In this document: positions 16,206 to 33,825 of the stretch, one piece after another
Layout: every line of letters starts with the position of its first letter
Position numbering within the stretch: position 1 is the stretch's first letter
Assembly: GCA_001512995.1 (NCBI GenBank)
Contig: LFRY01000043.1
Location: 26,669-65,748 of the forward strand
Length of the DNA stretch: 39,080 nucleotides
Direction: 5' to 3'
Origin: Acholeplasmatales bacterium DTU067
GTDB lineage: Bacteria; Bacillota_I; Bacilli_A; ML615J-28; CAG-698
Program-made: the position numbers and the translations under genes
Notes under the pieces: generated by a model
Told to the model about the DNA's origin: nothing
Database searches by the model: none
Seen by the model: the letters and a program-made list of their open reading frames with translations, nothing else

Positions 16206-16235
16206 AAAAAAAAGGCGGATTTCCGCCTTTTTTCA
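16206..16235. terminator. Bidirectional terminator between the flavin reductase and LacI genes
   Basis: AAAGGCGG (16211-16218) and CCGCCTTT (16223-16230) with an ATTT loop, flanked by an A run on the left and a T run on the right. It therefore works for the rightward gene and for the leftward lacI-type gene. Confidence 0.9.
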
Positions 16236-17204
16236 TTTGGTAGTTTCTCTTTCCCGGAGCGTTACCTGGATGATTTTGTGCTGTTCGGGAAGTTCTTTTC
16301 CGCCAAAGAGTTTCAAAAGCGTCGCCATCGCTTCAACGCCGATGTATTTGATCGGCTGGGAAACGACGGTGAGCGCAGGATAAATCCATTTGGAAATCGG
16401 GAGACCGTCAAAGCTGACCAGGAAGATGTCCTCGCCGAGTCTGCGTCCGATTTTGTTTAAGATGCCGGCGGTAATCACGCCCAATGTGTCGGACAGGGTG
16501 AAAATGCCGTTGATTTGGGGGTTGTTTAAGAGGTAGTTGAACATGAATTTATAATCCGGATTGAGCAAATCAAAATCATAGTACTCATAAGGAAAATCAT
16601 GTTTCTTCACCGTTTCCACAAACCCCAAAGTCCTTTCGGAGGTCGTGATTAAAAACGAGGGCCCGCGGAAGAGCACGAAATTATTGGCCCCGCTCCTAAT
16701 CAAAGCCTCGGCCGCCATTCTGCCCCCCCCGATGTTGTCCGTGGTGATCGAGGGTATGTTCGGGTCGATGATGTGGTCGACGGTGACGGTGGGAATGTTC
16801 AGGGCGATTAGTTTTTCCGGGTTCAGGAGATTGGAACAGACAATCAGCCCGTCGATCCTGTATTGCTCAAAGATGCGGATGTATTCGAGTTCTCTGTCCG
16901 AATCATTGTTGGTGATGCAGAGCATGACCTTGTAACCATTGTTCAGGGCTTCCTGTTCGATGCCCCCAATCATTTCGCTGATGAAGGGGGAATCGATGTG
17001 GGGGATGATGATGCCGATGATGCCGGACTGCATCTTTAGAAGCAACCTGGCCAATTGGTTCGGCGTGTACCCCATTTCCTTAACGACTTCATCGACGATT
17101 TTCTTTGTTTCCGGGTGGACATAGCCCTTGTTGTTGATCGCTCTGCTCACGGTGGCGACGCTCACGTTCGCCCTTTTTGCAATATCCCTAATCGTTACTT
17201 TCAT
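16233..17204 (-). CDS. LacI/GalR-family transcriptional regulator, probable maltodextrin regulator
   Basis: 323 residues from the ATG at 17204, which follows GAGGAGAGG; an upstream in-frame start at 17219 lies at or before that site. The N-terminal helix-turn-helix reads VTIRDIAKRANVSVATVSRA (residues 3-22) with the usual hinge helix, and the rest is a periplasmic-binding-protein-like ligand domain (IIGIIIPHIDSPFISEMIGG, DGLIVCSN, FDGLPISKW). Regulators of this class bind palindromes centred on CG and respond to a sugar. Its place downstream of a neopullulanase gene and among amylolytic genes suggests control of the maltodextrin island (MalR/MdxR-like role). The residues before the hinge do not prove which operator it binds. 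Confidence 0.85.
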   Translation of the reverse strand: MKVTIRDIAKRANVSVATVSRAINNKGYVHPETKKIVDEVVKEMGYTPNQLARLLLKMQSGIIGIIIPHIDSPFISEMIGGIEQEALNNGYKVMLCITNNDSDRELEYIRIFEQYRIDGLIVCSNLLNPEKLIALNIPTVTVDHIIDPNIPSITTDNIGGGRMAAEALIRSGANNFVLFRGPSFLITTSERTLGFVETVKKHDFPYEYYDFDLLNPDYKFMFNYLLNNPQINGIFTLSDTLGVITAGILNKIGRRLGEDIFLVSFDGLPISKWIYPALTVVSQPIKYIGVEAMATLLKLFGGKELPEQHKIIQVTLRERETTK

Positions 17205-17223
17205 ATGACCTCTCCTCAAGGAA

Positions 17224-17251
17224 ATTATACCATAGGACGCACTTTTTTCAA
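17224..17251 (-). promoter_or_regulatory. Possible internal promoter for the LacI-family gene
   Basis: On the minus strand TTGAAA (17251-17246), a 16-base spacer and TGG-TATAAT (-10 at 17229-17224) overlap the 3' end of the neopullulanase gene. This would give the regulator a second, independent promoter. Confidence 0.4.
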
Positions 17252-19003
17252 AATCCTATAGCCGTAGGGGTTGATTTTTATTTCTTCTTTCTGCTTTCCC
17301 GTTTCCAAATCCGAAAGGGTTTCCTCAAAGCGGAAAACTCTTTCCGCCGGGGAATTGTTAATGATGATGATTGTGTTTTGTTTCCGGAAGGCGAGGCAGT
17401 CATCCGTGCTGATCCAGATGAGGTCGGGAGCAGTGAAATCGGGGTTTTCTTTTCTGATGCTAATCAGCCTCTTAAAAAAGGCGAACAATTCCCGGTCCTG
17501 CCCCTCCCCCCAAATCATGCAGCGCCGGCAGTCGGGATCGCCCCCGCCGGTGAGTCCGATTTCGTCCCCGTAGAAAAGCGCGGGGCTTCCGGTGAAAGCG
17601 AAGAGAAAGACGAAGGCAAGTTTCAGTTTCTCCTTGTTATCCCCGACCCGCTTAAGCATCCGCATCGTGTCGTGCGAATCCAGCAAATTGTACATGTAGG
17701 GCGCAACATTCTTTGGGTATTTTACAAGCAACTCATTGATTCGCAGAGAAAATTCTTCGCCGTCGATTTCCCCGGAGAAAAATTTCCAAAGCGGATGGGC
17801 AAGTTCATAATTCATCACCGCGTCGAATTGGTCCCCTCGGAGCCAGAGATTGGCGTCGTCCCAGTTTTCGCCGACGATGTAAGCGTCAGGTTTTACGGCT
17901 TTCACGGTTTTCCGGAACTTCCGCCAGAATTCATGGCTGATTTCGTTGCTGACGTCGAGCCGCCAGCCGTCGATGTCGAACTCTTCGATCCAGTAGCGGG
18001 CAACCCTGAGAAGATACTCTTCCAGGAAGGGATGGGCCGTGTTCAGCTTCGGCATCAGCGCCGTTTTCCCGAAAGTGCGGAATTTCAGGCGATGGTTTTC
18101 CGGAACGAGGGGAAGGCCAGAGGAGGAAATCGGAAAGTCGATGAAGTTTTCATCCTCGATGAAAAAACAATCCCAATAAGGAGAAGCCTTTTTCCTTTTG
18201 ATCACGTCCTGGAAGAAGGGGTGGAACCAACCGCAATGGTTGAAGACCGCATCGAGGATGATTCTGATCCCCAAACTGTGGCATTCCCGGACAAGCTCCC
18301 TAAAGTCGGCTTCGGTTCCGAACTGAGGATCGATTTTGAAATAATCGATCGTGTCATATTTATGCGCGGAAAAAGCTTCAAAAATCGGTGTGAGATAGAT
18401 GCCGGTGATGCCCAAATCCGCAAGGTAAGGCAGTCTTTCCCTGATGCCCGCAAGATTCCCTCCGAAAAGATGATGGTTGGTGATCCCTTCACGGACCGAA
18501 TCCCAGGGAAGATGGGAGCCAGCCGGACCCTTCCGCGCGAATCTTTCCGGAAAGATTTGGTACCAGACGGTGTTTTTTGCCCACTCGGGAAAAGTCGGCA
18601 AATCCTCCTTCGGGATGTCGGGATAATTGAAATATTCGAAGGGATCGTAGAGATTGAACCCCTCTTTGATTTCAGAAATCCTCCTTGGGCCGTAGAAATA
18701 TCTGCTTCCCTCCGCATGGAGGATGAAGGCATATTTGGTGCGCTTGCTCGGGGCCTTCACTTCCAGAAACCAATAATCCAGATGGCGGCCGGAATAGAGT
18801 TTTTCCATGGCCAAGTTTTTCTCAGAGCTGGGGCGCCAACGATATTTGCCCTCGAGCTTTATGTAATCAAAGGGATCCCCCGCGATCAATTCCGCTTTCT
18901 GGAGATCGTCCTTCGCTGTTTCAAGGTAGATGTGCAGCGTTTCTTCGTCTTGGGCATAGGCCATGGGGCTTTTCGGAATGTGTCTGACAGCAGCGAAATT
19001 CAT
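17225..19003 (-). CDS. Neopullulanase/cyclomaltodextrinase-type GH13 enzyme, cytoplasmic
   Basis: 592 residues with no signal peptide. An N-terminal beta domain (about residues 1-120) precedes a GH13 barrel starting near NTVWYQIFPERF. Conserved regions: I DAVFNHCG, II GWRLDVSNE with the nucleophile Asp350, III VGENWDDANLW with the general acid Glu, IV LLDSHDTMR, and MPKLN, the mark of the neopullulanase subfamily (GH13_20). These enzymes hydrolyse alpha-1,4 and some alpha-1,6 bonds in imported maltodextrins, cyclodextrins and pullulan fragments. The ATG lies 13 bases from GGAGG, a longer gap than usual. An extended -10 (TG-T-TATAAT) is present just upstream. lacI-type regulation follows in the same transcript. 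Confidence 0.9.
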   Translation of the reverse strand: MNFAAVRHIPKSPMAYAQDEETLHIYLETAKDDLQKAELIAGDPFDYIKLEGKYRWRPSSEKNLAMEKLYSGRHLDYWFLEVKAPSKRTKYAFILHAEGSRYFYGPRRISEIKEGFNLYDPFEYFNYPDIPKEDLPTFPEWAKNTVWYQIFPERFARKGPAGSHLPWDSVREGITNHHLFGGNLAGIRERLPYLADLGITGIYLTPIFEAFSAHKYDTIDYFKIDPQFGTEADFRELVRECHSLGIRIILDAVFNHCGWFHPFFQDVIKRKKASPYWDCFFIEDENFIDFPISSSGLPLVPENHRLKFRTFGKTALMPKLNTAHPFLEEYLLRVARYWIEEFDIDGWRLDVSNEISHEFWRKFRKTVKAVKPDAYIVGENWDDANLWLRGDQFDAVMNYELAHPLWKFFSGEIDGEEFSLRINELLVKYPKNVAPYMYNLLDSHDTMRMLKRVGDNKEKLKLAFVFLFAFTGSPALFYGDEIGLTGGGDPDCRRCMIWGEGQDRELFAFFKRLISIRKENPDFTAPDLIWISTDDCLAFRKQNTIIIINNSPAERVFRFEETLSDLETGKQKEEIKINPYGYRILKKVRPMV

Positions 19004-19149: not shown

Positions 19150-19647
19150 ATGGTTTTTGACAGGCGCCTGCGCGCTTACTCCATCGACACTTCCCTGGCC
19201 TTTTTGCTTGTTATCCTGGTCATATTCACGGTTTATGATTTAAAAATGCCCGAATGGGCCAAAAACTCCATTGTTGCTGCAATCTATCTGGGCGTCTACA
19301 TCATTCCCAATCTGATATCGCCCGGGCAGACCTTCGGAAAAAGAGTGCAAAAACTGAAGGTGATCAAAAACAGCGGTTATGAGGGCAGGGAATACCGCGT
19401 CCCCTCGCGTTTCTTTTTGGTCCTGCGCGAGCTTCTCAAAGCCGCTTGTACAATCCTCACTTTCGGTTTCTACCTGCTGATTGCCGGCATCGTCAGCAAC
19501 AACCGCCGCGACGGGAGGACCGTGCACGATTTCGTGTTCGGGACCAGGGTGATTCCGCTCACTCGTTTCAGCGACGAAAGAACGGAAAGGTTCGTTGTCG
19601 GGGAAGAAATGAAAGAAGCTTTGAAAGGAACCAGCCACCATGATTAA
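19150..19647 (+). CDS. RDD-family membrane protein
   Basis: 165 residues with about three transmembrane segments (near residues 15-30, 40-60 and 95-120). The family signature is visible: RRLRAYSIDTSLAF near the start (Arg and Asp of the RDD pattern), SPGQTFGKRVQKLKVI in the middle and RRDGRTVHDFVFGTRVI near the end. Functions of RDD proteins are mostly unknown; some have been tied to ion transport or stress. AGGAG lies upstream of the ATG. It overlaps the alpha-amylase lipoprotein gene by 8 bases, which ties it to extracellular starch breakdown, perhaps as a membrane partner, though that is only context. Confidence 0.83.
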   Translation: MVFDRRLRAYSIDTSLAFLLVILVIFTVYDLKMPEWAKNSIVAAIYLGVYIIPNLISPGQTFGKRVQKLKVIKNSGYEGREYRVPSRFFLVLRELLKAACTILTFGFYLLIAGIVSNNRRDGRTVHDFVFGTRVIPLTRFSDERTERFVVGEEMKEALKGTSHHD

Positions 19648-21217
19648 AAGATGCTTGTTCATTCTTTTGGCACTGCTTGCGCTTGTTTTCTCGGGTTGCG
19701 AAAGGGAAGGGGATGAGCTGCGCGCGGCCAATCCCCGCAATGAAATCATATATCAGGTTTTCGTGCGGAGTTTCGCGGATGCGGACGGGGACGGAATCGG
19801 GGATCTGGCCGGACTTGCTTCGCGGCTTGATTATTTTGAAGAGCTCGGCGTGACCGCGCTCTGGCTGATGCCGATCTTTCCGAGCCCCACTTACCACGGC
19901 TATGACGTGACCGACTATTATGGCATCAACCCCGATTACGGAACCATGGATGATTTCAAAAATTTGGTTTCGGAAGCCGGAAAGAAGGGCATGAAAATCA
20001 TTCTCGACATGGTCTTCAACCACACGTCCTCCGAGCATCCCTGGTTCCAGGCGGCGCTTTCGGGCGATGAAAAATATCGGGCTTATTATAATTTCCATGC
20101 AACGCGTCCTTCGGGGGCAGGTTCCTGGAACCAAAACATTTGGCATGGCAGCCCCGGAAATTACTATTGCGGCTATTTCGACCATACGATGCCGGATCTG
20201 AACATGTATAATGAAGAAGTTCTGGAAGAGATCTTTGCGATCAGCCGGTATTGGATCGAACTCGGCGTCAAAGGGTTCCGGCTCGATGCCGCTCAACATT
20301 TTTTCGGACACAATGAATACCCGGGGGCGCATTATGATTATTACGAAAACATCATTTTCCTAAAGAGACTGAGAAATAAATGCTTAGAAATCGATCCCGA
20401 GTTTTACTTGCTCGGAGAAATCAACGTGACGATTGATTCGGTCGTCGGCGAATATTTCCAGGGCATCCATTCCGCCCTTGATTTTCCGATTTCCCAAAAA
20501 ATCCTGGACAGCGCCGTCAGTAACTCCCGGAACTATGTCATCAAGATCCTCCAAAGCTATGACAAATACAGGGATTACAATCCGCAGTTCATCAGCGCTC
20601 CCTTCCTCACCAATCACGATGAGGACAGGGTCGCGGATTTGGCGAGCGGGGACCTGCGGAAGTTGAAACTTGCCGCGGAGATGCTGCTGACGCTGCCGGG
20701 CTCTCCGATTATCTACTACGGCGAGGAAATCGGCATGCATGGCGTAAAGTCAAACGGCGAGAAGGTGGACGGCAGGGAAATTTGGGACGAAACGAGGCGG
20801 CTGCCCTTTAAGTACGGGGATGGGATGGACACCGATTGGTTCAGCGATGAGAGTTTTCCGAGCGTCGCAAAAAACAAAGCCATAGAAAGCGTTCTGGAAC
20901 AGCAAGAAGATCCTTCCTCCCTTTGGCATACATACCAGAAGTTAATCGAGCTGAGAAAAGCTTTCCCAGCGCTGAGGTACGGAAACTCCATCTCTCCCTA
21001 TGAAGGGAACACCTCCAATCTCCAGGGTTTTTACAGGACTTATGAATATAAAGACTTTTCGCAAAAAATCTTGGTTCTGCACAATTTTTCCAATTCCGAA
21101 TTGGACTTGCCACCTTACTCCGGAAAGATTATCTACGCCAGCGAGGGCGATGATTACGAAAACCTGGAGAAAATCGGCCCGCGCTCGACCGTGATCATCG
21201 AGGTTGAAGATGTTTAA
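19640..21217 (+). CDS. Alpha-amylase family (GH13) lipoprotein
   Basis: 525 residues. A lipoprotein signal (MIKR, hydrophobic core, VFSGC with the lipid-bearing Cys at about residue 20) puts it on the outer face of the membrane. The GH13 barrel begins with IIYQVFVRSFADADGDG. Catalytic regions are DMVFNHTS, GFRLDAAQHF with nucleophile Asp216, LLGEIN with Glu260 and FLTNHDEDR. MPDLN is the motif of the group between oligo-1,6-glucosidases and neopullulanases (GH13_36). The calcium-loop-like DADGDGIGD also fits. It would cut alpha-1,4 links in starch or maltodextrins outside the cell, giving oligosaccharides for the MalEFG importer. It overlaps RDD upstream (8 bases) and the DUF1189 gene downstream (8 bases). 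Confidence 0.92.
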   Translation: MIKRCLFILLALLALVFSGCEREGDELRAANPRNEIIYQVFVRSFADADGDGIGDLAGLASRLDYFEELGVTALWLMPIFPSPTYHGYDVTDYYGINPDYGTMDDFKNLVSEAGKKGMKIILDMVFNHTSSEHPWFQAALSGDEKYRAYYNFHATRPSGAGSWNQNIWHGSPGNYYCGYFDHTMPDLNMYNEEVLEEIFAISRYWIELGVKGFRLDAAQHFFGHNEYPGAHYDYYENIIFLKRLRNKCLEIDPEFYLLGEINVTIDSVVGEYFQGIHSALDFPISQKILDSAVSNSRNYVIKILQSYDKYRDYNPQFISAPFLTNHDEDRVADLASGDLRKLKLAAEMLLTLPGSPIIYYGEEIGMHGVKSNGEKVDGREIWDETRRLPFKYGDGMDTDWFSDESFPSVAKNKAIESVLEQQEDPSSLWHTYQKLIELRKAFPALRYGNSISPYEGNTSNLQGFYRTYEYKDFSQKILVLHNFSNSELDLPPYSGKIIYASEGDDYENLEKIGPRSTVIIEVEDV

Positions 21218-22040
21218 GATTTTTAGAAAATCCTTTCGCTTCCGGGACATTTTCTCCCTGAAGGACGAATCCCTCGGGAAATTCATCCTCTATTTCCTGA
21301 TGATGATTCTGGTCGCATCCTTCCCCTTGAATTATCAGATTTTCCGTAGCGACGGTTTCGACGGCCTGACGCGTTTCACCCAATACCTGAGGAACCATCT
21401 CGAACTCGAATTCATCGACTCCCTACCGAGCGGGGGCTCGCTTTCCCCCAACGGGTTTTCTGTCTTCCCGGACAAGGAATACCGGTACGTCACAGAAACG
21501 GAGCAGGGGGAATTCATACTGGTTTTGAATCCGAAAGAAGAGGGTGAGTTACGGAACGCCATCCTCTTATACAAGGACAGAACCGTCTTCTATGACTCCG
21601 ACGGCAATCACATCGTCGGAAGTTACGGGAGACTGGATAAGGGGCTTGATTTTGGGGATTTGAAAAGCATGGACCGCGTGGAAGCGAGGGATCTCTTCTT
21701 TTCCGCCATCGACTCAACCTTCAATAAATACGGCGTCTTCTATTCGCTCGCGGTCAACACCGGCCTCCAATATCTGATGAACGCGCTCCTGGTTTTGGTG
21801 CTGGCGTTATTGATGCTGCTTGTGAAGATCAATTACGAAAGGATCACGGGTTTTTCCGAGAATTTAAAAATCGTCATCGCATCGATGACGATTCCTTCGA
21901 TACTGAGTTTTGTTGCTGCGCTGCTCCATTACAAGGCGTTGAACACCTTCTTCGTCGTGATCTTTCAGTTCCTGACGCCAATCATTGCCGTGCTCACTCT
22001 TTATAAGGGCAGCAAAAAACCGCAAAAGAAGATATTATGA
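21210..22040 (+). CDS. DUF1189 membrane protein, MalA/YvdJ-like maltodextrin-utilisation protein
   Basis: 276 residues from the ATG at 21210, 6 bases after GAGG; a TTG at 21204 touches the binding site. Topology: one transmembrane helix near residues 22-42, an extracellular beta-rich domain (about 45-180), then three hydrophobic segments (about 190-265). This layout and the sequence fit DUF1189. Members of that family occur in maltodextrin operons, such as MalA of Streptococcus and YvdJ of Bacillus subtilis; their biochemical role is not settled. Being coupled to the amylase lipoprotein supports a role in maltodextrin use. The gene overlaps the amylase stop. Confidence 0.78.
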   Translation: MFKIFRKSFRFRDIFSLKDESLGKFILYFLMMILVASFPLNYQIFRSDGFDGLTRFTQYLRNHLELEFIDSLPSGGSLSPNGFSVFPDKEYRYVTETEQGEFILVLNPKEEGELRNAILLYKDRTVFYDSDGNHIVGSYGRLDKGLDFGDLKSMDRVEARDLFFSAIDSTFNKYGVFYSLAVNTGLQYLMNALLVLVLALLMLLVKINYERITGFSENLKIVIASMTIPSILSFVAALLHYKALNTFFVVIFQFLTPIIAVLTLYKGSKKPQKKIL

Positions 22041-22083: not shown

Positions 22084-24861
22084 TTAGCTTGTGAAGAATT
22101 CGTCCCTCTTTCTGAAGGCATAGAATGCGAACAGGAAGGGTGCGGCAAACCCGGAGAAAAGCCTGAGGCAGCCTTTTTTCTTGGCGGCCTTTTTCTGATG
22201 GTAGAAAATCAAGGTTTCGTGTTCCAAAATGTTGACTGTCTGCCCGCTTTCATAGGTTCTGATGCCCTCTTCGTCAATCCTTCTGCTGTTGGCAATCAAA
22301 ACCCATTCGCCCTCCACCTGGGGCAGTTGCAGTTGTTTCAACAGCCCGTTGTTGTGAATGACGAGGGTTTTACCCCAGGTTTCGCCCTCGATTGACCAGT
22401 CGAGATTGTCGATTTGGAAGGCGATGATGTTTTCTTCGTCTTCATAGAGGAACGAGAGTTTTTCCAATACTTCCTCTGCGCTTCCGAGGCGGAAGGCGGG
22501 ATGCGCCTTTCTCAGGGCGATGAGGCCCTTGTAGTAATTGAAAACTTCGACGTGTTCCGCTTTCAGATCCCAGCGAAGTTGGTTGACCGTGTCGGGGGAT
22601 TCGTAGGAATTGCTGTCATAGCCGCTCTTGGCGGGTTTCGAACGCATGAATTCCGCCCCCGCATGGATGAAGGGGACTCCCTGCGCCGTGAGGACAATCG
22701 CATTCGCCTGCTTTTGCATCGCCTCCAAAAATTCCCTTTCGGAGAAGGAAATCGAAAGCATCAGTTTGTCATGGAGGGTGTGGTTGTCGTGGGCACTCGC
22801 GTAATTTATGCTCTTGCCCGGCTCCGTATGCCAGAATTTCTTTCCTGAAAGCTTGTCTTTGTTTATGCCGGGGTATTCGATTCCGCCCACGATGCCGTAT
22901 TTGAGCCTGTGGATGACCCCTTCATCGTATTTACCCTGCACGAAGCCCTTGTCGCTGGCGGTGAAGACCGAACCCTTGATGGCGTCCCGGAAATCGTCGT
23001 TGAAGGCGCCGACCGCGGGGATTTTGTCAAGATTGGCTTTATCGGCGGCGATTGCCGGATCCAGCGGCGTCGAGCCCCCAGTCCAGGGTTCCCCGTAAAC
23101 CAGGATGTTTTCGTCGATTTCTTTCAGCGCTTCAAAAACCGCGTTCATCGTGTCCACGTCATGGAGGGCCATCAGGTCAAAACGGAAACCCGAGAGATTG
23201 TATTCCTTCGCCCAGAAAGTGACGGAATCGACGATGAATTTCCTGACCATGTAGCGTTCCGAGGCGGTTTCGTTGCCGGTTCCGGATCCGTTGGAGAAGG
23301 CGCCGTCCTGCGTCAGGCGGTGGAAATAACCGGGGATAATCAGATGGAAATTGGAGTCCCCGCTCAGGCCCGTGTGGTTATAAACGACGTCCATGATCAG
23401 GCCGATGTTGTTTTTTGAAAAAGCGGTTGCGACCTGCTTCAGTTCCGAAATCCGCTTGTTTCCGTCATAAGGATCGGTTGAATAAGAGCCCTCCGGAACA
23501 TTGAAGTTGAGCGGCATGTAGCCCCAATTGAAGACATTGTAATTTTGGTCATTGAGTCGGGTTTCGTCGACGACGCCGAAATCGAAGAAGGGCAGCAATT
23601 GCACATGGGTCACGCCCAGTTCCTTGATGTGATCGAGGCCGGTGGAGACGCCCTCATAGCTCGTGCCTTCGACCGTGAGCCCCAGGAATTTTCCCCTGTA
23701 TTCTTCGGGGCCGTTCCAGCTTTGATGGCTGGTGAGATCGCGGACATGGAGTTCGTAGATGATGGCGTCGGTCGCTTTTTTGATGTTATTCGGCCTGTCA
23801 CCATAGACGAAGCCTTCCGGATTGACCCGGGAGAAGTCCACGACCATGCCCCTGATGCCGTTGACGCCCGCGCTCTTCGCATAGGGGTCAATCACTTCGT
23901 TTTGGGAAGCGCCGTTGGTGACGGTATAGGTATAGTATGTTCCGTGCAGGTTTTCATTGAAGCTGAAGAACCAGATCCCCTTCTCGCCCTTTTGCATTTC
24001 ATGGCTTGTTTTTGTGTCGTTTCCGCCGTAAAGGGCCGGGGTTCCGGTGTCGTAAATATTGAGGACGACTTTGTCGGAAATCGGCGCCCAGAGCTTGAAA
24101 GTGGTCTTTCCGTCGGTGACGACTGCGCCCAAATCATCCCCTTCGTAAGCAAAAGCAGCCTCGAATTCCGGAGAATCGTAAATGCCGTCAAAAGTGACGT
24201 TGTAACTCCTGTTTCCAGATTCGAAAGCGGCTTCGAGACGGTATTTCTTTGAAAAATCCAGCTCCTTGTTCAGGGTGAGGGTGCCCGTCGTGCCGCTGAT
24301 TTCCGCTGTGAAGGGAATTTCCTGCTCCCCTTCGAATAATTTCAGATCATCTTTTGAAACTTCCGTGGTGGTTTGGAAATAAATCTGGTCGGTTTTCAAA
24401 AAATAAGCGCATTTGATTTTGTCGCTCTTGTCGGGGCCGTTCGGATCGTCGGGGGAATATCCCATTCTCTCATCTCCTTCTACAAAATACACATGCAGAA
24501 TTCCGTCCTCTGTCTTGGCCGGCACTTCAATGTAACGGTCTTTCCCAATGTCTTTTTCAAGCCAGTTCCCCCTCCTGAACAAAATCCCGATCCGGCTTTT
24601 GTTTTGGTAGGGTGTTCCGGCGAGCTTCACGGTCGCGACGACTCCGAAATCGTCCTTGATTAATTCGCCCCCTTCCTGATCGAAATGGATTTCCTTTCCA
24701 TTCTGTCCCTCGGGCCAAAGCCAAATGTTCCAGTCCTCGTAGTAATTTCCGTAACGGTAATAGTGAATCTTTAAAACTTCAACCGGTTTTTCATTTGCTT
24801 TGACGTTTGCGGAGAAGGCGACGAAGAAAACCGCAAATAACAGAATCAAAAACTTCCTCAT
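22084..24861 (-). CDS. pulA: Secreted, C-terminally anchored type I pullulanase
   Basis: 925 residues. Order: signal peptide (1-22, ending ANVKAN); a CBM41/PUD starch-binding module (about 27-130, KIHYYRYGNYYEDWNIWLWP, DDFG); a beta domain (about 150-230); CBM48-like region (TTFKLWAPISDKVVLNIY); then the GH13_14 barrel. Pullulanase marks are NVFNWGYMP, DVVYNHTG, GFRFDLMALHD with nucleophile Asp562, YGEPWTGG and SAHDNHTL. It hydrolyses alpha-1,6 branch links of pullulan, starch and glycogen outside the cell. The C terminus is KKKGC (Cys898), a hydrophobic run to about 917, then RKRDE, which looks like a surface anchor and matches the neighbouring surface protein. AGAGGTGA precedes the ATG. The promoter is shared in a divergent region with that gene. 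Confidence 0.93.
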   Translation of the reverse strand: MRKFLILLFAVFFVAFSANVKANEKPVEVLKIHYYRYGNYYEDWNIWLWPEGQNGKEIHFDQEGGELIKDDFGVVATVKLAGTPYQNKSRIGILFRRGNWLEKDIGKDRYIEVPAKTEDGILHVYFVEGDERMGYSPDDPNGPDKSDKIKCAYFLKTDQIYFQTTTEVSKDDLKLFEGEQEIPFTAEISGTTGTLTLNKELDFSKKYRLEAAFESGNRSYNVTFDGIYDSPEFEAAFAYEGDDLGAVVTDGKTTFKLWAPISDKVVLNIYDTGTPALYGGNDTKTSHEMQKGEKGIWFFSFNENLHGTYYTYTVTNGASQNEVIDPYAKSAGVNGIRGMVVDFSRVNPEGFVYGDRPNNIKKATDAIIYELHVRDLTSHQSWNGPEEYRGKFLGLTVEGTSYEGVSTGLDHIKELGVTHVQLLPFFDFGVVDETRLNDQNYNVFNWGYMPLNFNVPEGSYSTDPYDGNKRISELKQVATAFSKNNIGLIMDVVYNHTGLSGDSNFHLIIPGYFHRLTQDGAFSNGSGTGNETASERYMVRKFIVDSVTFWAKEYNLSGFRFDLMALHDVDTMNAVFEALKEIDENILVYGEPWTGGSTPLDPAIAADKANLDKIPAVGAFNDDFRDAIKGSVFTASDKGFVQGKYDEGVIHRLKYGIVGGIEYPGINKDKLSGKKFWHTEPGKSINYASAHDNHTLHDKLMLSISFSEREFLEAMQKQANAIVLTAQGVPFIHAGAEFMRSKPAKSGYDSNSYESPDTVNQLRWDLKAEHVEVFNYYKGLIALRKAHPAFRLGSAEEVLEKLSFLYEDEENIIAFQIDNLDWSIEGETWGKTLVIHNNGLLKQLQLPQVEGEWVLIANSRRIDEEGIRTYESGQTVNILEHETLIFYHQKKAAKKKGCLRLFSGFAAPFLFAFYAFRKRDEFFTS

Positions 24862-25040: not shown

Positions 25041-27494
25041 ATGAGAAAAAGTCTAATCTTGTTCTTTTTATCCGTCCTCGCTATGGTTTTCTTAGGCTAT
25101 GGCGTGGGGAATACAGCAAGGGCTGCGGATGAAGATTCGGCTTTGGTCGGCAAGGTTTATGTTCATTACATGAGCTGGGAAGCCGAGGAAAAAGAAGTCG
25201 GCATCCATGTATGGGGTAACGGAACGGATGCGCAAGCGGTTAGTCCTCCTTACAAGTATACGGGTAAGGATGATTTCGGATATGTCATGGAAGTCAATGT
25301 CATGTCCGACGCCAGCGACAACATCGGCATCATTGTCATCAAAGACAATGTGCTGTCCGATCCCTGGAATAACAAAGACTCCGCAGATATGTTCGTGAAT
25401 GTGAAGCCTTTGAAAGAAGGCATAACCGACCGCATCGATGTTTATTATTTCTCGGGCGGCGTGACGGAATATTTCGTTGCGGATCCGGAAATGGCGAATG
25501 TTTTCGCGCTCTATTATGACCCCTCGGGAAGTTATGAAGACAAACTCGGCGTCCATGCCTGGGGATTTGAAGATTTGGATTCAGAATGGGGAACACCGCG
25601 CGAAATTTTCAAAGACGGTTTCAAATCGCCCGGCGACACTCAGGGCAAAGTCGCGCACATGAAATACACCCCCGGGGATGACAAGGATCCGGGATTCCTG
25701 ATCTACGCGGGAAGCGATGCCAATAAGAAGCATGCGGCTTTCGGCGACATCAAAGAAGAAACCGTGCCTGGATTTTCGAAACTGAAGGCCGGGGAAATCA
25801 TGGTCATCTTCGTTACCGGAGGCAATGTCTTCGCGGGCGTGGACAAGAAAGGGGAATTTATTGAAGGCGCCTTCACCTTCGGTTTCCAGAAATTCCAAAT
25901 TTCCAGCCTGGCGGGAACGTTTGCGAAAAACCCGACCACGATTTTTGCGAGATTCACGCTAAAAATGAAAACCAAGAAAGTTGTCAGAAAAGAAGAGATC
26001 ACCGTGATCGAACATGTCCGCGACAACCCCGTCTTCGTTCCGAGTGGGAAGCTCCCGGACGACCTTCCGGAATTTGACGAATACGAGCCGGCGGATCTCC
26101 CCGATGGCGCGGAAGCAAAAGTTGTCTTCCATTATCACCGCTGGGACGGGGATTATACGGGAACCGGACTCTGGACCTGGAATTGCGGAACCGCGGGCAG
26201 CAGTGAAGCCGTAACCATGAAGGGCGTCGATGATTTCGGGGCCGTCATGGAAATCGTGATTGACATTGACGATGCAGAGGACACCATCGGCATCATCCCG
26301 ATTGCCCATGACATCGACAAGGATTCGCGTTGGGATCACCGCGAAACTCCCGCTGGCAAGGACATCAATCTTGACATTTCCAAACTGAAACTGAATGACG
26401 GGACGCTGACCGAACTCCATGTTTATTATTTCGAAGGCGGTCTGCAGAATGTCTTCATTGCGGACGCGACCAAAGCGAACGTGCTCATCCTTTATTATGA
26501 TCCCGAAGAAAATTACGAAGAGAACCTCGGTTTCCATACCTGGGACAATCAATGGACGAATGTTGAAAATGCGAATTGGGGAGAGCCGGTCAAGGTTTTT
26601 GTTGATGGCTTCAAATCACCGCTGGGCGTCACCGGCAAGGCAGCATTGCTTCAGACCGAACCGGGAACGGATGCGGAAACCTTAATTTATGCCGGCGATG
26701 ACGAAACCAAGAAGCATAAAGATCACGGAAATCTGAAGGGCTTCGAGGACATGGTTGCCGGCGAAGTGAGGGTAGTTTATGTTGCCATGCAGAAGGTGTA
26801 CGATGAGAGAACGGAATTCGCGCTCGAAGCTTTCGGCGGAACCATCATTTGGAAACCTGTTTTTGAAGAAGTGACCAAGGAAATCGACATCCTTGAATTG
26901 ATTGATTTCAAGAAATACTTCACGCTGAAAGAAGGCGATAAGGAAATTCCCATCAAAGCCATCTATTTCAACACCACCGCTGAAGAAATCAACGAGTTCG
27001 TTTTAGAACTTGACAAAGAAAATAAACTGGACAACAAAAAGAAATACACACTCTACTTCAACAACCAAGGCGAAGGCAATGAGCATTACCAGGTCGAAAT
27101 AGAACTCGACCTTGACACCCAAGCTCCGGTCATCACCCTGGTTACCGAAGATGATGTGGACGAAGTCATCATCACGATTCCTTTGGGCTCCGAATGGGAC
27201 AATTCTCTATTCCCGATTTATCGTGCGAGCGATGACAGAGACAAAAATCTTTCCTCAAAAGTCTATGTTCCGGAAGACAAAGGCTTCCTGTCCACAAAAG
27301 AAGCCGGAACATATGAGATCACATTGCAGGTTGAAGATGAATGGGGCAATGTAGGCACAGCCACTTTCAAGATTGTCGTTGCTCCTCGCAAAGGCTGTAA
27401 AAACAAAAGCGCAAACATCTTCCTCGGATTGGGAGTCCTGGGACTCGGTTTATTCCTGATCCGCAGAAGAAGGTTTGTATGGGGAAAGGAGTAG
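25041..27494 (+). CDS. Surface starch-binding protein with repeated PUD/CBM41-like modules, non-catalytic
   Basis: 817 residues. A signal peptide (1-29, ending ARAAD) is followed by a long repeat. The first copy runs from about residue 39 (VYVHYMSWEAEE) and the second from about 361 (VVFHYHRWDGDYTG). Each copy holds two PUD-like modules with W/DDFG-type motifs (DDFGYVMEV; DDFGAVMEI) and a second module (ALYYDPSGSYED; ILYYDPEENYEE), so four in all. Then come a beta domain like the one in the neighbouring pullulanase, an Ig/DUF5011-like domain (DTQAPVITLV) and a C-terminal RKGC (Cys786)-helix-RRRR anchor. No catalytic domain is present. It probably tethers polysaccharide at the surface. GGGAGGAG precedes the ATG; malE follows after 4 bases. 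Confidence 0.82.
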   Translation: MRKSLILFFLSVLAMVFLGYGVGNTARAADEDSALVGKVYVHYMSWEAEEKEVGIHVWGNGTDAQAVSPPYKYTGKDDFGYVMEVNVMSDASDNIGIIVIKDNVLSDPWNNKDSADMFVNVKPLKEGITDRIDVYYFSGGVTEYFVADPEMANVFALYYDPSGSYEDKLGVHAWGFEDLDSEWGTPREIFKDGFKSPGDTQGKVAHMKYTPGDDKDPGFLIYAGSDANKKHAAFGDIKEETVPGFSKLKAGEIMVIFVTGGNVFAGVDKKGEFIEGAFTFGFQKFQISSLAGTFAKNPTTIFARFTLKMKTKKVVRKEEITVIEHVRDNPVFVPSGKLPDDLPEFDEYEPADLPDGAEAKVVFHYHRWDGDYTGTGLWTWNCGTAGSSEAVTMKGVDDFGAVMEIVIDIDDAEDTIGIIPIAHDIDKDSRWDHRETPAGKDINLDISKLKLNDGTLTELHVYYFEGGLQNVFIADATKANVLILYYDPEENYEENLGFHTWDNQWTNVENANWGEPVKVFVDGFKSPLGVTGKAALLQTEPGTDAETLIYAGDDETKKHKDHGNLKGFEDMVAGEVRVVYVAMQKVYDERTEFALEAFGGTIIWKPVFEEVTKEIDILELIDFKKYFTLKEGDKEIPIKAIYFNTTAEEINEFVLELDKENKLDNKKKYTLYFNNQGEGNEHYQVEIELDLDTQAPVITLVTEDDVDEVIITIPLGSEWDNSLFPIYRASDDRDKNLSSKVYVPEDKGFLSTKEAGTYEITLQVEDEWGNVGTATFKIVVAPRKGCKNKSANIFLGLGVLGLGLFLIRRRRFVWGKE

Positions 27495-27498
27495 AGCG

Positions 27499-28842
27499 AT
27501 GAAAAAATATTTATCCATTTTCTTGTTCTTAAGTTTATTGCTGACTTTGGTGGCTTGCACGGCAGATTTCGACGCGAACGGCGTTGAGCTGAATTTCGGG
27601 CAAAGCCATGTGAAGCAAACCGTTCTGAAAGTCTGGTATGACGATAACGACGGATTTTTCATGGAAGAAGTCATCAAACTCTTTCAGCAGGAAAATCCGG
27701 GGATAATTGTGGAATTCACGCAGAAGGGATCGGTTCAGGCCCGCGAGGACCTGAAAACATACGGACGGACCGACCACGGCGCGGACGTTTTCCAATTCCC
27801 GCATGACCATATGGCGCAGGCGATTCTGGACGACCTCGTCTATCCGCTCCCCGATGAGCTTTTGGAAAGATTACAGGACAGAATCATTCCCGTCGCCCTC
27901 AACATCGCCACACTCTGCTATGATCCCGAAACCAATAGCTTCGAATGCACTGCCGGAGGCGGGGAAAAACTGTTTGCCGTTCCCCAATCCATCGAATCCG
28001 TTTTCCTCTTCTATAACAAAAATCTCGTTGACGAAAATAATCTGCCGGAAACTTTTGAGGAATTGATCCAACGGGCGAGGGATTATGAAGAAAAAATCAA
28101 AGAAACGAAGCCGGGCAACCGCTATTTCGGTTCATCTTCGCACTGGGCAGATTCCTATTATGTGCAATTCGTTTTCAGCGCTTTCGGTTGGACTCCCTTC
28201 GGTCCGGATTTGAATGACCCCACCGAAGTCGGTTTCCGGAAAGAAGAAATGGAGGCAGCGCTCCAGTGGTTGGTCGAAAACATCAAACCGATTACGACCG
28301 GAAACAACAATCACGATTCCGGAAAGAAAAAGGCCGATTTTGAAGACGGCGAACTCCCCTTCATCCTCGGAGGCCCATGGGATGTCGAAGGATTCAAGAA
28401 TGCGGAGGTCAATTTCGGCGCGATGACAATTCCGACAATCAAGATTAACGGCGAAGACAGGATGCCGCGCACTTATGCGGGAGCGCAGATGCTTGCGGTT
28501 TACAAATACACCAAGAACCCCGATGCCGCGATTAAGTTTGTGGAATTCTGTCAGACCGACAAAGTGAGCCAATTGTTGTATACAATCAAAGGCAAAGTGC
28601 CGGCGCTCAAACCTGAAATTCTTGAAAATATTAAAGGCATCAAGGATGACGTAATCGCGCAGGTCATGCTCGAACAACTCGAAACCTCCTATCCGATGCC
28701 GACGATTCCGGAGGTAACCCATTACTGGGGTCCGGCGGAAGCGTTAATCAAAAACATCTGGAATACAGGAAACAAGATTTCCTTCGAGGTCGAAAAGGCA
28801 GAAAAAGCTTATAAATCACTAAAAGATTTGGCGTCACGGTAA
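27499..28842 (+). CDS. malE: Maltodextrin-type ABC transporter solute-binding lipoprotein
   Basis: 447 residues from the ATG at 27499, after AAAGGAG; the in-frame extension upstream runs into the preceding gene. The signal ends LTLVAC, a lipobox, so Cys at about residue 18 is lipidated. The mature part is an extracellular solute-binding protein of family 1 (TVLKVWYDDNDGFFMEEVIKLF, ADVFQFPHD, GGPWDVEGFKN, NPDAAIKFVEF). It delivers oligosaccharide to the MalFG channel. The maltodextrin substrate is inferred from the surrounding amylase, pullulanase, malQ and glgP genes. A hairpin without a U run follows it, before malF. Confidence 0.87.
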   Translation: MKKYLSIFLFLSLLLTLVACTADFDANGVELNFGQSHVKQTVLKVWYDDNDGFFMEEVIKLFQQENPGIIVEFTQKGSVQAREDLKTYGRTDHGADVFQFPHDHMAQAILDDLVYPLPDELLERLQDRIIPVALNIATLCYDPETNSFECTAGGGEKLFAVPQSIESVFLFYNKNLVDENNLPETFEELIQRARDYEEKIKETKPGNRYFGSSSHWADSYYVQFVFSAFGWTPFGPDLNDPTEVGFRKEEMEAALQWLVENIKPITTGNNNHDSGKKKADFEDGELPFILGGPWDVEGFKNAEVNFGAMTIPTIKINGEDRMPRTYAGAQMLAVYKYTKNPDAAIKFVEFCQTDKVSQLLYTIKGKVPALKPEILENIKGIKDDVIAQVMLEQLETSYPMPTIPEVTHYWGPAEALIKNIWNTGNKISFEVEKAEKAYKSLKDLASR

Positions 28843-28894: not shown

Positions 28895-31279
28895 ATGATG
28901 AATAGGATAAAACATCTCTTAAAAGCGTTGCTTTCCTCAGTCATCTGGGGATTGGGTCAACTCCTTAACCGCCAATATTTCAAAGCTCTGTTTTTCTTTG
29001 CCATGTTTTGCCTGTTCTTCGGAATCGAATTCGGGAGCGGAAGGTATTTTTCCGAATTTGATCCTTATTCGAAAATCGCCGGCGATGATTTGACCGACAC
29101 GCTCGCCAATAAATTCTACCGGGAATACCAGGCGGATCTTGAGAATCCTTACAGCGGCGTCCGGCCCTTCCCAAACTTCGACGAATATTTCGAAACTCAC
29201 AAAGCGGGCGGCTTAAGCATGGAAGAATTGATCGAGTTCACGGCAATGGATCTGCTTGCGGAAAACAAAGTCAAGTTCTACGTGCTTGAAGAAGAACTGC
29301 GCGCAAAAGAAGAAGATAGGGGCAAGGAGCGGGAGACGGATTTATATCCCGATCTCCATGAGGAAGAAGTCTCGAAACTGAAAAGCTTGATAACAATCTT
29401 TACCACTTACCAGGATTTGGAGACGCTTGAAGAATATTCAAGGGTCAATACGGGCACTTCCCTAAATCCCGTTTATGTCTTCGTAAACATTGCTGACGAA
29501 AGCGACATCCGGACCGAAATGACCAATTATCGGATTCTGGAGCGGAAGGGAAGTCTATATCGGACGGCGGATTACTCTGATTTTTACCTGCAGGTGGTGG
29601 ACGCAAGCGGAAACGCGGTCCGTTATGACAATGTCATACCCGAACGGGAGTCCCTTGCTGCGGATGATTCACGTGTGGCGGGTCTCATCAAACTGCCCAG
29701 AATTAACGACGCAATTTATTACAGCGAAGACACGGTTTACGGTTATTTCAATCCGGAAGGAAGGGACGGGCGCTATCGGCCTACACCCTTCACCCAATAT
29801 TTAAGCAGATTTTTCATTAATTCCAATCTAATATATCAGGGCAATGACCAGGATGATTTTGCGAAATTCAAGCTCAGGGTTTATTTCGCGATGCATCCGG
29901 ATCTCAAGGAAGATTTCGAAACCCGCTTCAACAATTTCTTCTATGACCGCGCCGGTTTCTTTTTGCGGGGACTCTGGGCCATCGTCACTTTGGGAACAAC
30001 GGAAGGAGCGGATTATTACCAGATCAGCAAATTGGAACAGGCGATTGATGTAAAAGATTTGGGAGGAACCGTCCTGCAGACCATAATCGTGCGCGGGCAC
30101 CAATCTGCCTTCCTGATGATCGAAGGCTTGATTTCCCTGCTGTTACTGTTGGTTTTCCTGATTTTCTATGTCTGGAACATCAGGGATGCATACAAAACGA
30201 GCAAGGAATTTGCTGCGACCGGCGTCAGGATTTCGGATAAGGTCTATTTCAAAAAGCTTTGGGAATCCTCCTTCGAATACATCGTTCTCTTCCCGGCTTT
30301 CCTTGCGCTGATCTTCATTTCCGTAATGCCGATTCTTTACGGTTTCCTGGTCGCTTTCACATCATATAGCGGCAGGCAGGCGGACATCAGCCTCTTCGAC
30401 TGGGTCGGGTTCAAGAACTTCCTGCAGATTTTCCAATTCGGAGAATCAGTCGGCATACCGTTTGGGAAAGCGTTCTGGAGCGTTCTTTTATGGACAATTA
30501 TCTGGGCGATCTTTTCCACCTTCACCGTGTTTTTCGGTGGCTTTTTCCAGGCTGTCGTCATCAATTCCGAAAGGGTTCCTTTCAAGAAATTCTGGCGAAC
30601 GCTCTTCATTCTTCCCTGGGCAATCCCGGCAATCATCACGCAGATGGTTTTTGCCAACATTTTCAACGATGACGGCGTCGTCAATCATTTCCTGGAAAAT
30701 CTGGGACTGTATGAAATTTTGAAAAACTGGAAGATGCTGGGGCTCAGTTTTGAGCAGTTCAAGGAGACCGGCCTGCCGAGAATCCTATACCTCGGGCATG
30801 ACGACATCCAATGGTTCGGAAACCCCCACAATAAATGGTTCGTGAGGATAAGCCTGATCGTTGTCAACATCTGGCTCGGTTTCCCGTATTACATGGCGCT
30901 GATGACGAGCACGATGACGGGAATCGACCGCACTTTCTATGAAGCGGCGGACATCGACGGAGCCAGCAAATGGCAGAAGTTTTGGAAGATTACTTTCCCC
31001 CTTGTCATGATGGCGACAGCACCGCTCTTGTTGATGTGTTTTTCCGGCAACTTTAATAACTTCGGAATGATCTACTTCACCACCCAGGGCGGGGCGAACA
31101 GCGATTACAGCAGCGCTTTCGCGGGGGACACCGACATTCTGATTTCCTGGATGTATAAGCTCACGGTTGATGAGAAGTATTACAACATGGCTTCGGTCTT
31201 TTCGATTTTAATCTTTGTGTTTGTCGGCTCGATCGCTGCTTGGAACTATTCGCGGACCAGAGCCTTTAAGGAGGATTGA
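28895..31279 (+). CDS. malF: Maltodextrin ABC transporter permease MalF with a very large extracytoplasmic insert
   Basis: 794 residues, far longer than a usual MalF (about 430-515). The N terminus (LLSSVIWGLGQLLNRQYFKALFFFAMFCLFFG) matches the start of other Gram-positive MalF proteins. Residues of about 47-400 are hydrophilic, with acidic stretches, and come before the next transmembrane helix at about 412-432. The normal permease core follows (about 470-790) with the EAA motif EAADIDGASKWQKFWKITFPL near 690, which contacts the ATPase. With MalG it forms the channel in the cytoplasmic membrane. The insert would face outwards, where MalE docks. AAGGAGG precedes the ATG, and malG follows 2 bases after the stop. 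Confidence 0.87.
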   Translation: MMNRIKHLLKALLSSVIWGLGQLLNRQYFKALFFFAMFCLFFGIEFGSGRYFSEFDPYSKIAGDDLTDTLANKFYREYQADLENPYSGVRPFPNFDEYFETHKAGGLSMEELIEFTAMDLLAENKVKFYVLEEELRAKEEDRGKERETDLYPDLHEEEVSKLKSLITIFTTYQDLETLEEYSRVNTGTSLNPVYVFVNIADESDIRTEMTNYRILERKGSLYRTADYSDFYLQVVDASGNAVRYDNVIPERESLAADDSRVAGLIKLPRINDAIYYSEDTVYGYFNPEGRDGRYRPTPFTQYLSRFFINSNLIYQGNDQDDFAKFKLRVYFAMHPDLKEDFETRFNNFFYDRAGFFLRGLWAIVTLGTTEGADYYQISKLEQAIDVKDLGGTVLQTIIVRGHQSAFLMIEGLISLLLLLVFLIFYVWNIRDAYKTSKEFAATGVRISDKVYFKKLWESSFEYIVLFPAFLALIFISVMPILYGFLVAFTSYSGRQADISLFDWVGFKNFLQIFQFGESVGIPFGKAFWSVLLWTIIWAIFSTFTVFFGGFFQAVVINSERVPFKKFWRTLFILPWAIPAIITQMVFANIFNDDGVVNHFLENLGLYEILKNWKMLGLSFEQFKETGLPRILYLGHDDIQWFGNPHNKWFVRISLIVVNIWLGFPYYMALMTSTMTGIDRTFYEAADIDGASKWQKFWKITFPLVMMATAPLLLMCFSGNFNNFGMIYFTTQGGANSDYSSAFAGDTDILISWMYKLTVDEKYYNMASVFSILIFVFVGSIAAWNYSRTRAFKED

Positions 31280-31281
31280 TT

Positions 31282-32319
31282 ATGTTTCTGAAAATCATCA
31301 TCGGCTATCTCTTGATTGTAATCTATCTCACAATGGTGGCGATTGGCGCCGAGATATATGAGAGAAAGGGCTATAAGAAAAGCACGGGCGCTTATTTGTG
31401 TCTGATTCCCATCTACGGCATCATCAAGGTTCTCCTGGCTCCGGCTTTGCGGGAGGTTTCGAAAGAGGCTTTAAGGAAATTTTATAAGCCCGGGGAGATT
31501 ATGATGAAACTCCTGACGTTCGCGCAGCTGACCCTGGTCGCGATTCTGATCATTCTCCCGGTGACCTACATGATTGGCTCTTCTTTCGCGAAAACAAGCG
31601 ATCTTCCCGAAACCTTCCTGCCCAAAAATTTCACTTTAAACAATTACAAACGACTTTTCCTTGAAACCGATTTTTGGCGCTGGTTGGTCAACACAGCCTC
31701 AATTGCCGTCATCACAATGGTAATCAGCGTCGTCTTCGTCACCGGAGCCGGATATGTTTTTGCACGCTTCAAATTCAAGGGTAAGAAAGTTGCTCTCCTG
31801 GGAATTTTGGTCCTGCAGATTTTCCCTTCCTTCATGAGCATGATTGCGCTCTTTACCCTGTATGAGATTTTCGGGCTCTTGGGACAGCCGCTCGCGCTCG
31901 TGATCATCTATGTCGGCGGTTCCATCCCCTTCAATGTCTGGCTGATCAAAGGATACTTGCAACAGATCCCCCGGGATCTTGACGAAAGCGCGATGCTGGA
32001 CGGAGCCAACAAATGGCAGATCTTTACAAAAATCATTCTGCCGCTGTCGGTCCCGGTTCTTTCTTTCGTCGCGGTGTCGCAATTCATGGCGCCCTGGATG
32101 GATTACATGCTTCCGCGCCTGCTCTTGGACATCAAGAGCACGAAGGAAAACTGGACGATCGCCCTCGGTCTCTTTGACATGATTTCCGGTCCGGATAAGC
32201 AGAATTACACGACCTTTGCTGCGGGATCGATGATCGTGGCCGTGCCGATCACAGTCCTCTACATGGTGTTCCAGAGATATCTGATCACGGGGATTATCGC
32301 CGGCGCGACCAAGGGCTGA
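31282..32319 (+). CDS. malG: Maltodextrin ABC transporter permease MalG
   Basis: 345 residues from the ATG at 31282, 7 bases after AAGGAGG; a TTG at 31276 is too close to it. An extra N-terminal hydrophobic stretch (about 1-70) precedes the MalG core of six helices. The EAA motif is DESAMLDGANKWQIFTKI in the C-terminal third. The ending QRYLITGIIAGATKG is the classic MalG tail. It pairs with MalF to form the maltodextrin channel. No ATPase gene follows; Bacillota often use a shared ATPase (MsmX/MalK) encoded elsewhere. The stop codon overlaps a CG-centred palindrome AAACGTTT. Confidence 0.91.
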   Translation: MFLKIIIGYLLIVIYLTMVAIGAEIYERKGYKKSTGAYLCLIPIYGIIKVLLAPALREVSKEALRKFYKPGEIMMKLLTFAQLTLVAILIILPVTYMIGSSFAKTSDLPETFLPKNFTLNNYKRLFLETDFWRWLVNTASIAVITMVISVVFVTGAGYVFARFKFKGKKVALLGILVLQIFPSFMSMIALFTLYEIFGLLGQPLALVIIYVGGSIPFNVWLIKGYLQQIPRDLDESAMLDGANKWQIFTKIILPLSVPVLSFVAVSQFMAPWMDYMLPRLLLDIKSTKENWTIALGLFDMISGPDKQNYTTFAAGSMIVAVPITVLYMVFQRYLITGIIAGATKG

Positions 32320-32330
32320 AACGTTTGCAT
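32319..32330 (+). promoter_or_regulatory. Possible LacI-family operator (AAACGTTTGC half-palindrome)
   Basis: AAACGTTT (32319-32326) is a perfect 8-base palindrome followed by GCAT, so the right half matches the GCAAACGTTTGC sites of MalR-type regulators. It lies between malG and malQ, with no clear promoter beside it. Confidence 0.35.
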
Positions 32331-32361
32331 CCTTTCATCCTAGATTTAAAGGAGTAGTTAT

Positions 32362-33825
32362 ATGAGAGGCAGTGGGATATTACTTCACATCAGTTCTTTG
32401 CCCGGTCCTCATGGAATCGGAACATTCGGAAAGGAAGCCTATGATTTCGTCGATTTTTTGGAAAAGGCGAAACAGAAATATTGGCAGATCCTACCCCTGG
32501 CTCCCACTTCCTACGGGGATTCTCCCTACCAGACACTTTCCGCCTTCGCCGGCAATCCTTATTTCATTGATTTTGAAACATTGAAAGCCGAAGGCCTGCT
32601 CGAGGAAGGGGATTTGCAGGGCCTTCCCCGCCGCAACGCGGGGAAAGTCGACTACGGTCTGCAGTTCCGCTTCCGTTTTGGGGTCCTGAAAAAAGCATAT
32701 CTGCGCTTTCGGGAAGACGGACCCTTTCGGAAGTTTTCCGAAACCCATTCCTGGTGGCTGGATGATTATGCCCTCTTCATGGCCCTGAAGGCCAAACACG
32801 GGCATGTGAGCTGGGAATTCTGGCCCGATGCATACAAATTCCGCGAACAGAAAGCCATGGGAGAATTCCGGAAGCGGGCAGCGGACGAGATTGGTTTTTG
32901 GAAATTCATTCAATATAAATTCTTCCAACAATGGGAGAAATTGAAGAAATATGCGAACGGCAAGGGCATCAAAATCATCGGCGACATCCCCATCTATGTC
33001 GCCTATGATTCCGCGGATGTCTGGTGCCAGCCCGGTTACTGGCAGTTGGACGATGCTTTGGTTCCGAAAGCAGTGGCAGGGGTTCCGCCCGATGCCTTCA
33101 CCCCCGACGGACAGCTCTGGGGGAATCCGCTCTATGATTACGGGGCAATGGAAAAAGATGGTTTTTCCTGGTGGCTCAAGAGAATCAAATTCAGTTTTCT
33201 TTTATACGACATACTCAGAATCGATCATTTCCGCGGCTTTGAGTCCTATTATGCCGTCCCCTACGGCGAGAAAACCGCCAGGAACGGAACCTGGGTCAAG
33301 GGTCCGGGCATTAAACTCTTTTCGAAAATCAAAGAAAAACTCGGGGATTTGGCGATAATAGCGGAAGACCTGGGATATCTCACGCCGGAGGTCCGTTCGC
33401 TCCTCCGCGAAAGCGGCTTTCCTGGCATGAAGATTTTCCAGTTCGGGTTCAATCCCGATTACGAAAGCGAATATGCCCCCCACAATTATACAAAGAATTC
33501 GGTTGTCTATCCGGGAACGCACGACAGTTCGACCCTGAGGGGCTGGGTGAAGTCGAGAACCCGCAGGGAATACCGCTATTACCGGGAGTATCTTGGATTC
33601 AAAAGAAAGAAAGATGCTGTCTGGAGCGGGATAGCGGAATGTTTCAAATCCGTGTGCGACACCTGCATCATCCAAATGCAGGACTACCTGGAGCTTGACG
33701 ATTCCGCCCGCTTTAACATCCCCTCCACATTGGGCGGAAATTGGATCTGGCGGGTCAAAAGCAAGCAGCTCACCGAAAAACTTGCGAAGAAAATCGCCCG
33801 CCTGGTGAAGATTTATTATCGGTAG
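32362..33825 (+). CDS. malQ: 4-alpha-glucanotransferase (amylomaltase, GH77)
   Basis: 487 residues, the usual MalQ length. It begins RGSGILLHISSLPGPHGIG. Other marks are PTSYGDSPYQTLSAFAGNPY, the catalytic RIDHFRGF with nucleophile Asp288, AEDLGYLTPEV with general acid Glu335, and YPGTHDSSTLRGW. It transfers glucan chains between maltodextrins, releasing glucose and making longer chains that phosphorylase can use, in the cytoplasm. AAAGGAG lies before the ATG. It is 42 bases after malG and 78 before glgP, so it is probably in the same transcript. Confidence 0.95.
   Translation: MRGSGILLHISSLPGPHGIGTFGKEAYDFVDFLEKAKQKYWQILPLAPTSYGDSPYQTLSAFAGNPYFIDFETLKAEGLLEEGDLQGLPRRNAGKVDYGLQFRFRFGVLKKAYLRFREDGPFRKFSETHSWWLDDYALFMALKAKHGHVSWEFWPDAYKFREQKAMGEFRKRAADEIGFWKFIQYKFFQQWEKLKKYANGKGIKIIGDIPIYVAYDSADVWCQPGYWQLDDALVPKAVAGVPPDAFTPDGQLWGNPLYDYGAMEKDGFSWWLKRIKFSFLLYDILRIDHFRGFESYYAVPYGEKTARNGTWVKGPGIKLFSKIKEKLGDLAIIAEDLGYLTPEVRSLLRESGFPGMKIFQFGFNPDYESEYAPHNYTKNSVVYPGTHDSSTLRGWVKSRTRREYRYYREYLGFKRKKDAVWSGIAECFKSVCDTCIIQMQDYLELDDSARFNIPSTLGGNWIWRVKSKQLTEKLAKKIARLVKIYYR

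Follow-up and report, generated by a model that had tools for sequence, protein, structure and literature searches.

A free-standing CBM41 protein tied to malEFG, and its probable role as a glycan holder, in Acholeplasma and related bacteria

Loci of Bacteroidetes are characterised by non-catalytic proteins dedicated to glycan binding. SusE and SusF of Bacteroides are non-catalytic proteins with starch-binding modules in tandem, encoded together with enzymes and a maltodextrin importer, and as outer-membrane lipoproteins they serve SusCD. In Gram-positive polysaccharide utilization loci (gpPULs), CBMs that form part of enzymes have instead been credited with polysaccharide binding (PMC5320581). 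Sas20 of the Ruminococcus bromii amylosome is non-catalytic and secreted, with two starch-binding regions of CBM26-like and X25 folds, and is docked through a dockerin (PMC9112005). Cgt of Actinoplanes is a secreted, non-catalytic starch binder for which binding has been demonstrated, and its deletion has no phenotype for growth on starch (PMC7275007).

The window, by which we mean the whole stretch of 39,080 nucleotides analysed from Acholeplasmatales bacterium DTU067, holds the degrading enzymes (PulA and GH13), the ABC importer (MalEFG) and the LacI regulator of a gpPUL. To gpPULs as described it adds a dedicated non-catalytic binding protein, P0001 (Table 1). P0001 resembles SusE/SusF in being a non-catalytic protein with tandem modules of starch-binding type whose gene accompanies those for enzymes and a maltodextrin importer, and its function may be alike. 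However, we see no homology between them, and P0001 has no lipobox on inspection of its sequence, carries a C-terminal transmembrane anchor and belongs to an ABC-type MalEFG locus. Like Sas20, it is a secreted, non-catalytic Firmicute protein of starch-binding type and has two regions of that type, whereas P0001 has a direct membrane anchor, a malEFG-linked gene and, by Pfam scan, neither a dockerin nor a cohesin module. Cgt is likewise a secreted non-catalytic protein of starch-binding type from a Gram-positive host, but has a single CBM20 and no anchor; the absence of a growth phenotype on its deletion calls for caution over any benefit proposed for P0001. Tandem CBM41 modules are common to P0001 and the streptococcal pullulanases, but P0001 lacks GH13 and CBM48, its A-B unit is duplicated and its B modules have diverged past family recognition.

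What appears to be new is a free-standing CBM41 protein tied to malEFG, gpPUL-type loci and the SusE/SusF and Sas20 analogues being known. A search of the open-access literature, outside which most subscription papers lie, returned no CBM41 protein without an enzyme and no characterised protein of this build, in agreement with the initial annotation. We consider it likely that P0001 is a dedicated glycan-holding component of the maltodextrin-import locus, tethering alpha-glucan beside PulA, the amylase and MalE.

Table 1. The malEFG locus and the parts of P0001 in the window (columns: feature, positions, strand, remarks)
LacI-family regulator	16233..17219	-	
GH13 maltodextrin glucosidase/cyclomaltodextrinase-like	17225..19003	-	
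RDD-family membrane protein	19150..19647	+	
GH13 alpha-amylase-type lipoprotein	19640..21217	+	LVFSGC
DUF1189 membrane protein	21204..22040	+	
Type I pullulanase PulA	22084..24861	-	divergent; own PUD module; tail GC + hydrophobic stretch + RKR
P0001, non-catalytic PUD/CBM41 protein	25041..27494	+	ATG start, 817 aa
P0001 signal peptide	25041..25127	+	read from sequence; ends ...NTARAA, without lipobox cysteine; helix 2-20 in model
P0001 module A1, CBM41/PUD	25140..25490	+	43.1 bits; platform motif HVW in place of WxW
P0001 module B1, diverged CBM41-like	25491..25895	+	19.4 bits (below cut-off)
P0001 module A2, CBM41/PUD	26106..26471	+	44.9 bits; canonical LWTW
P0001 module B2, diverged	26472..26855	+	H22, W24, W28, W36 conserved (module numbering)
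P0001 module C, beta-rich	26856..27125	+	
P0001 Ig-like domain, PF16403	27126..27389	+	24.1 bits against cut-off 27
P0001 C-terminal anchor	27390..27491	+	GC + hydrophobic helix + RRRR
malE, lipoprotein solute-binding protein	27499..28842	+	
malF permease	28895..31279	+	
malG permease	31276..32319	+	
malQ-like 4-alpha-glucanotransferase	32362..33825	+	assigned from translation; conserved neighbour in relatives
glgP-like glycogen/maltodextrin phosphorylase	33904..36222	+	assigned from translation; neighbour in relatives

Self-alignment of P0001 reveals two repeats of about 240 residues (37-278 and 359-598; 38% identity, E 9e-49), whose first modules start 322 residues apart. Each repeat runs A then B, giving A1-B1-A2-B2 overall. 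In a Pfam scan, PUD (PF03714) matches three stretches of the protein (whole-protein E 1.7e-26), and neither Pfam nor NCBIfam places a glycoside hydrolase or other catalytic family in it. The anchor helix spans residues 800-812 in the predicted model. The open reading frame, the self-alignment and the family searches thus bear out the signal peptide, duplicated repeats, C-terminal anchor and lack of an enzyme domain given in the initial annotation. The Ig-like domain proposed there has a family match, at residues 711-778, with a score slightly below the family cut-off. Inspection of the sequence finds no LPxTG motif, and no sortase gene was matched in the genome, which is about 90% complete. 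Module C was considered as a pullulanase N2 domain and rejected, since profile comparison gave no support. The malE Shine-Dalgarno sequence (GGAG) does lie, as had been annotated, inside the final codons of P0001 (GTA TGG GGA AAG GAG TAG), and 4 nt separate the stop codon from the malE ATG. Scanning the divergent pulA-P0001 region for promoters and terminators found nothing.

We find that the A modules are, by homology, true CBM41/PUD modules. In a six-frame scan of the genome both exceed the curated PUD cut-off of 25 bits, and all four PUD modules detected genome-wide fall in this window. An A profile searched against the PDB retrieves the CBM41 of Thermotoga maritima PulA (TmPulA, 2j71) at 4.7e-12, and also the streptococcal tandem CBM41s (SpuA/SpyDX; 2j43, 2j44, 2ya1). 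In a fold search with the full-length P0001 model (mean pLDDT 75; pTM low, 0.40), the leading hits are SpuA and its tandem CBM41, and TmCBM41 has a target-normalised TM of 0.77. By both sequence and fold, the nearest solved relatives of A1 and A2 are therefore these pullulanase modules. The A2 motif aligns to LWIW of 2j71 and keeps the W-x-W pair, which we take, from structure work on T. maritima, to be the CBM41 binding platform. The B modules have HxW, with His at the first platform position, and among homologues His and Trp alternate there. Counting against a tethering role are the His that A1 and B both carry where the first platform Trp would be, and the scores of B, which lie below every family cut-off.

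The B modules are probably diverged CBM41. B2 scores 14.2 bits and, like B1, falls below the PUD cut-off; across 37 copies, His22, Trp24, Trp28 and Trp36 are conserved in nearly all, and PUD is weakly detected in 12. A sequence search of the PDB with B found no CBM. The isolated B2 model (pLDDT 87) has CBM25 and CBM20 starch-binding domains as its top fold matches, at an E of 0.04 that is not significant. By hhalign, B aligns to the A modules with 79.9% probability, and to the second modules of Izimaplasma-type homologues with 94.4%. These second modules are canonical CBM41s with the WxW pair at the B position, and B is read as a diverged CBM41 because it aligns to them. An A-to-B comparison from only six sequences gave no signal and a larger set was required. 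That B is an ordinary CBM41 was rejected: alone it is recognised by neither sequence nor fold search, and it is reached only through intermediates. Of the two PUD/CBM41-like modules per repeat that had been proposed, A is clearly CBM41/PUD in profile searches, whereas B is not recognised at any family cut-off. If B binds, it may be worth a CBM family of its own.

To establish how widely the protein occurs, 84,980 species genomes were scanned, yielding 32 loci, 30 of them with a near-complete open reading frame. The place upstream of malEFG holds in related genomes, malE being the next gene in 29 of the 30 loci. The PulA gene is a divergent neighbour in 25, precedes the CBM41 gene on the same strand in 1, lies elsewhere in the locus in 3 and falls past the contig edge in 1. 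The hosts belong to Acholeplasmataceae and Izemoplasmatales or are unclassified Tenericutes or Bacilli MAGs, and named ones include Acholeplasma oculi, Peloplasma aerotolerans and Tenericutes bacterium MO-XQ. A long form of 806-840 aa with two A-B units is found in the window's family and in a second group, and a short form of 483-654 aa has one A-B unit. As CBM41 usually sits in pullulanases and P0001 lacks the catalytic domain, the gene could be a decayed pullulanase remnant without function; this is highly improbable, however, as some 30 homologues from several families have intact frames of 483-840 aa, gene order, the duplicated unit and the aromatic residues are all conserved, and an intact pulA adjoins. 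TAG codons had been reported inside three homologues; in L004, the one checked, TAG is a true stop that the search had read through, and recoding was rejected.

Anchoring was compared by scoring a transmembrane helix in the last 50 residues of the CBM41 protein and of PulA. The 29 scorable pairs come from the window and from 28 loci at which the PulA C-terminus was verified, L061 (PulA incomplete) and L079 (the frame picked is a different protein) having been left out. The anchor state agrees in 29/29 pairs, both proteins being anchored or both unanchored. On the MalF tree a single change accounts for the trait, and the agreement, although real, therefore reflects one or two events. Both the CBM41 protein and PulA lack a membrane anchor in the Acholeplasma-type clade (L067-L072, L074, L075, L077, L078, L080-L082). 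The designation "surface protein" thus fits the anchored forms and not the whole family, and a tether does not fit the species of that clade.

We also note that a tail of GC (or GCxxC), hydrophobic helix and RRK/RRR is common to P0001, PulA and another surface protein of the genome (L002:41-643, minus strand; PKGCKGCKDAAAPGTLAFMGLMGLAFFLIRRKRK). This tail is similar to sorting signals of the CTERM type that have an invariant Cys; in P0001 and PulA it gave no match to an NCBIfam model. An anchor-only match is also present in G010 (L028), and the PulA C-terminus in L075, L078 and L081 weakly matches the profile of the CBM41 protein's Ig-like domain.

Co-occurrence was assessed across 43 genomes from the order, including the window's own, with long MalF defined by an E below 1e-130. 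Long MalF is present in 7 of the 43, and the CBM41 protein in exactly those seven and in 0/36 of the others. Among these other 36 genomes, five have a single PulA-sized PUD frame (836-936 aa, assigned by size) and no CBM41 protein. The complete overlap with MalF, together with these PulA-sized frames, therefore indicates that its distribution tracks the importer and not the pullulanase.

These data also bear on two other functions. First, P0001 might be chiefly a PulA scaffold, its Ig-like or C modules binding the pullulanase and glycan binding being incidental. The adjoining divergent pulA and the matched anchoring would suit such a role, which we hold to be quite unlikely: PulA has its own PUD module, the five genomes have PulA-sized frames and no P0001 homologue, and no interaction module of the dockerin or cohesin type was found in P0001. 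Second, it might be mainly an adhesin or coat protein that attaches cells to particles or neighbours by binding glycogen, storage granules or other alpha-glucans, with uptake secondary. Repeated CBMs, an Ig-like domain and an anchor are typical of adhesins, and some fold matches are Ig-like repeats of adhesins and cadherins, though these are generic beta-sandwich matches. The tight malEFG linkage and strict co-occurrence with long MalF point instead to uptake, and make a primarily adhesive role unlikely.

With respect to MalF itself, the window copy is long (794 aa) and has an extended N-terminal part with a weak DUF5683 match. Long MalF also lies downstream of the CBM41 protein in relatives, and the copy in G020 (L038) seems interrupted. 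No gene for a MalK ATPase was noted near malF. At the malG-malQ junction (32319-32362), the window is without an extra GH13 gene that close relatives carry there.

The description of P0001 as a Gram-positive counterpart of surface glycan-binding proteins is loose, its relatives being from Acholeplasma, Peloplasma and Izemoplasmatales MAGs. The group to which these belong, the mollicutes, is described as being without a cell wall (PMC7301438). There are two penicillin-binding transpeptidase matches in the window's genome. A membrane anchor fits either a wall-less or a walled envelope.

Under the glycan-holding role that we favour, P0001 would be secreted and kept in the cytoplasmic membrane by the helix at its C-terminus, with the four modules of starch-binding type displayed on a spacer that includes the Ig-like domain. 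The modules, for which binding is predicted from homology, would hold amylopectin, glycogen or a pullulan-like alpha-glucan on the cell surface, close to membrane-anchored PulA and the lipoprotein GH13 amylase. The lipoprotein MalE would capture the maltodextrins so released and MalFG would import them, with a predicted gain for hydrolysis or uptake. Support for such a tether comes from the CBM41 homology of A1 and A2, the position of the gene beside malE and pulA, the co-occurrence with long MalF, the matched anchoring, the conserved aromatic positions of B, the non-significant fold matches of B2 to starch-binding domains, and the lipoprotein nature of both MalE and the GH13 enzyme. A more specific proposal, which we put forward only tentatively, is a Sus-like ABC-importer arrangement in mollicute-related bacteria. 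Here the anchored glycan holder, with a B module functionally distinct from CBM41, would be displayed with the pullulanase through a shared GC-TM-RK signal and be the obligatory partner of one MalEFG type. A free-standing CBM41 protein conserved beside malEFG in Acholeplasma and Izemoplasma relatives would itself mean that the division of labour between enzyme and binder had also arisen around ABC importers, in a group described as wall-less. The homologues in the three named strains make these predictions testable.

Several relatives depart from the common architecture. L041:8893-10857 has an additional N-terminal stretch ahead of the PUD module, and the short form L042:9550-11391 carries an insert weakly matching X25_BaPul (PF22058, E 0.0034), which suggests swapping of starch-binding modules within this protein. 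In another family of the class, L052:8354-11974 and L053:5828-10285 encode proteins of 1206 and 1485 aa beside PulA that combine PUD with Ig-like or LTD domains and give no GH13 match; these are further non-catalytic PUD proteins.
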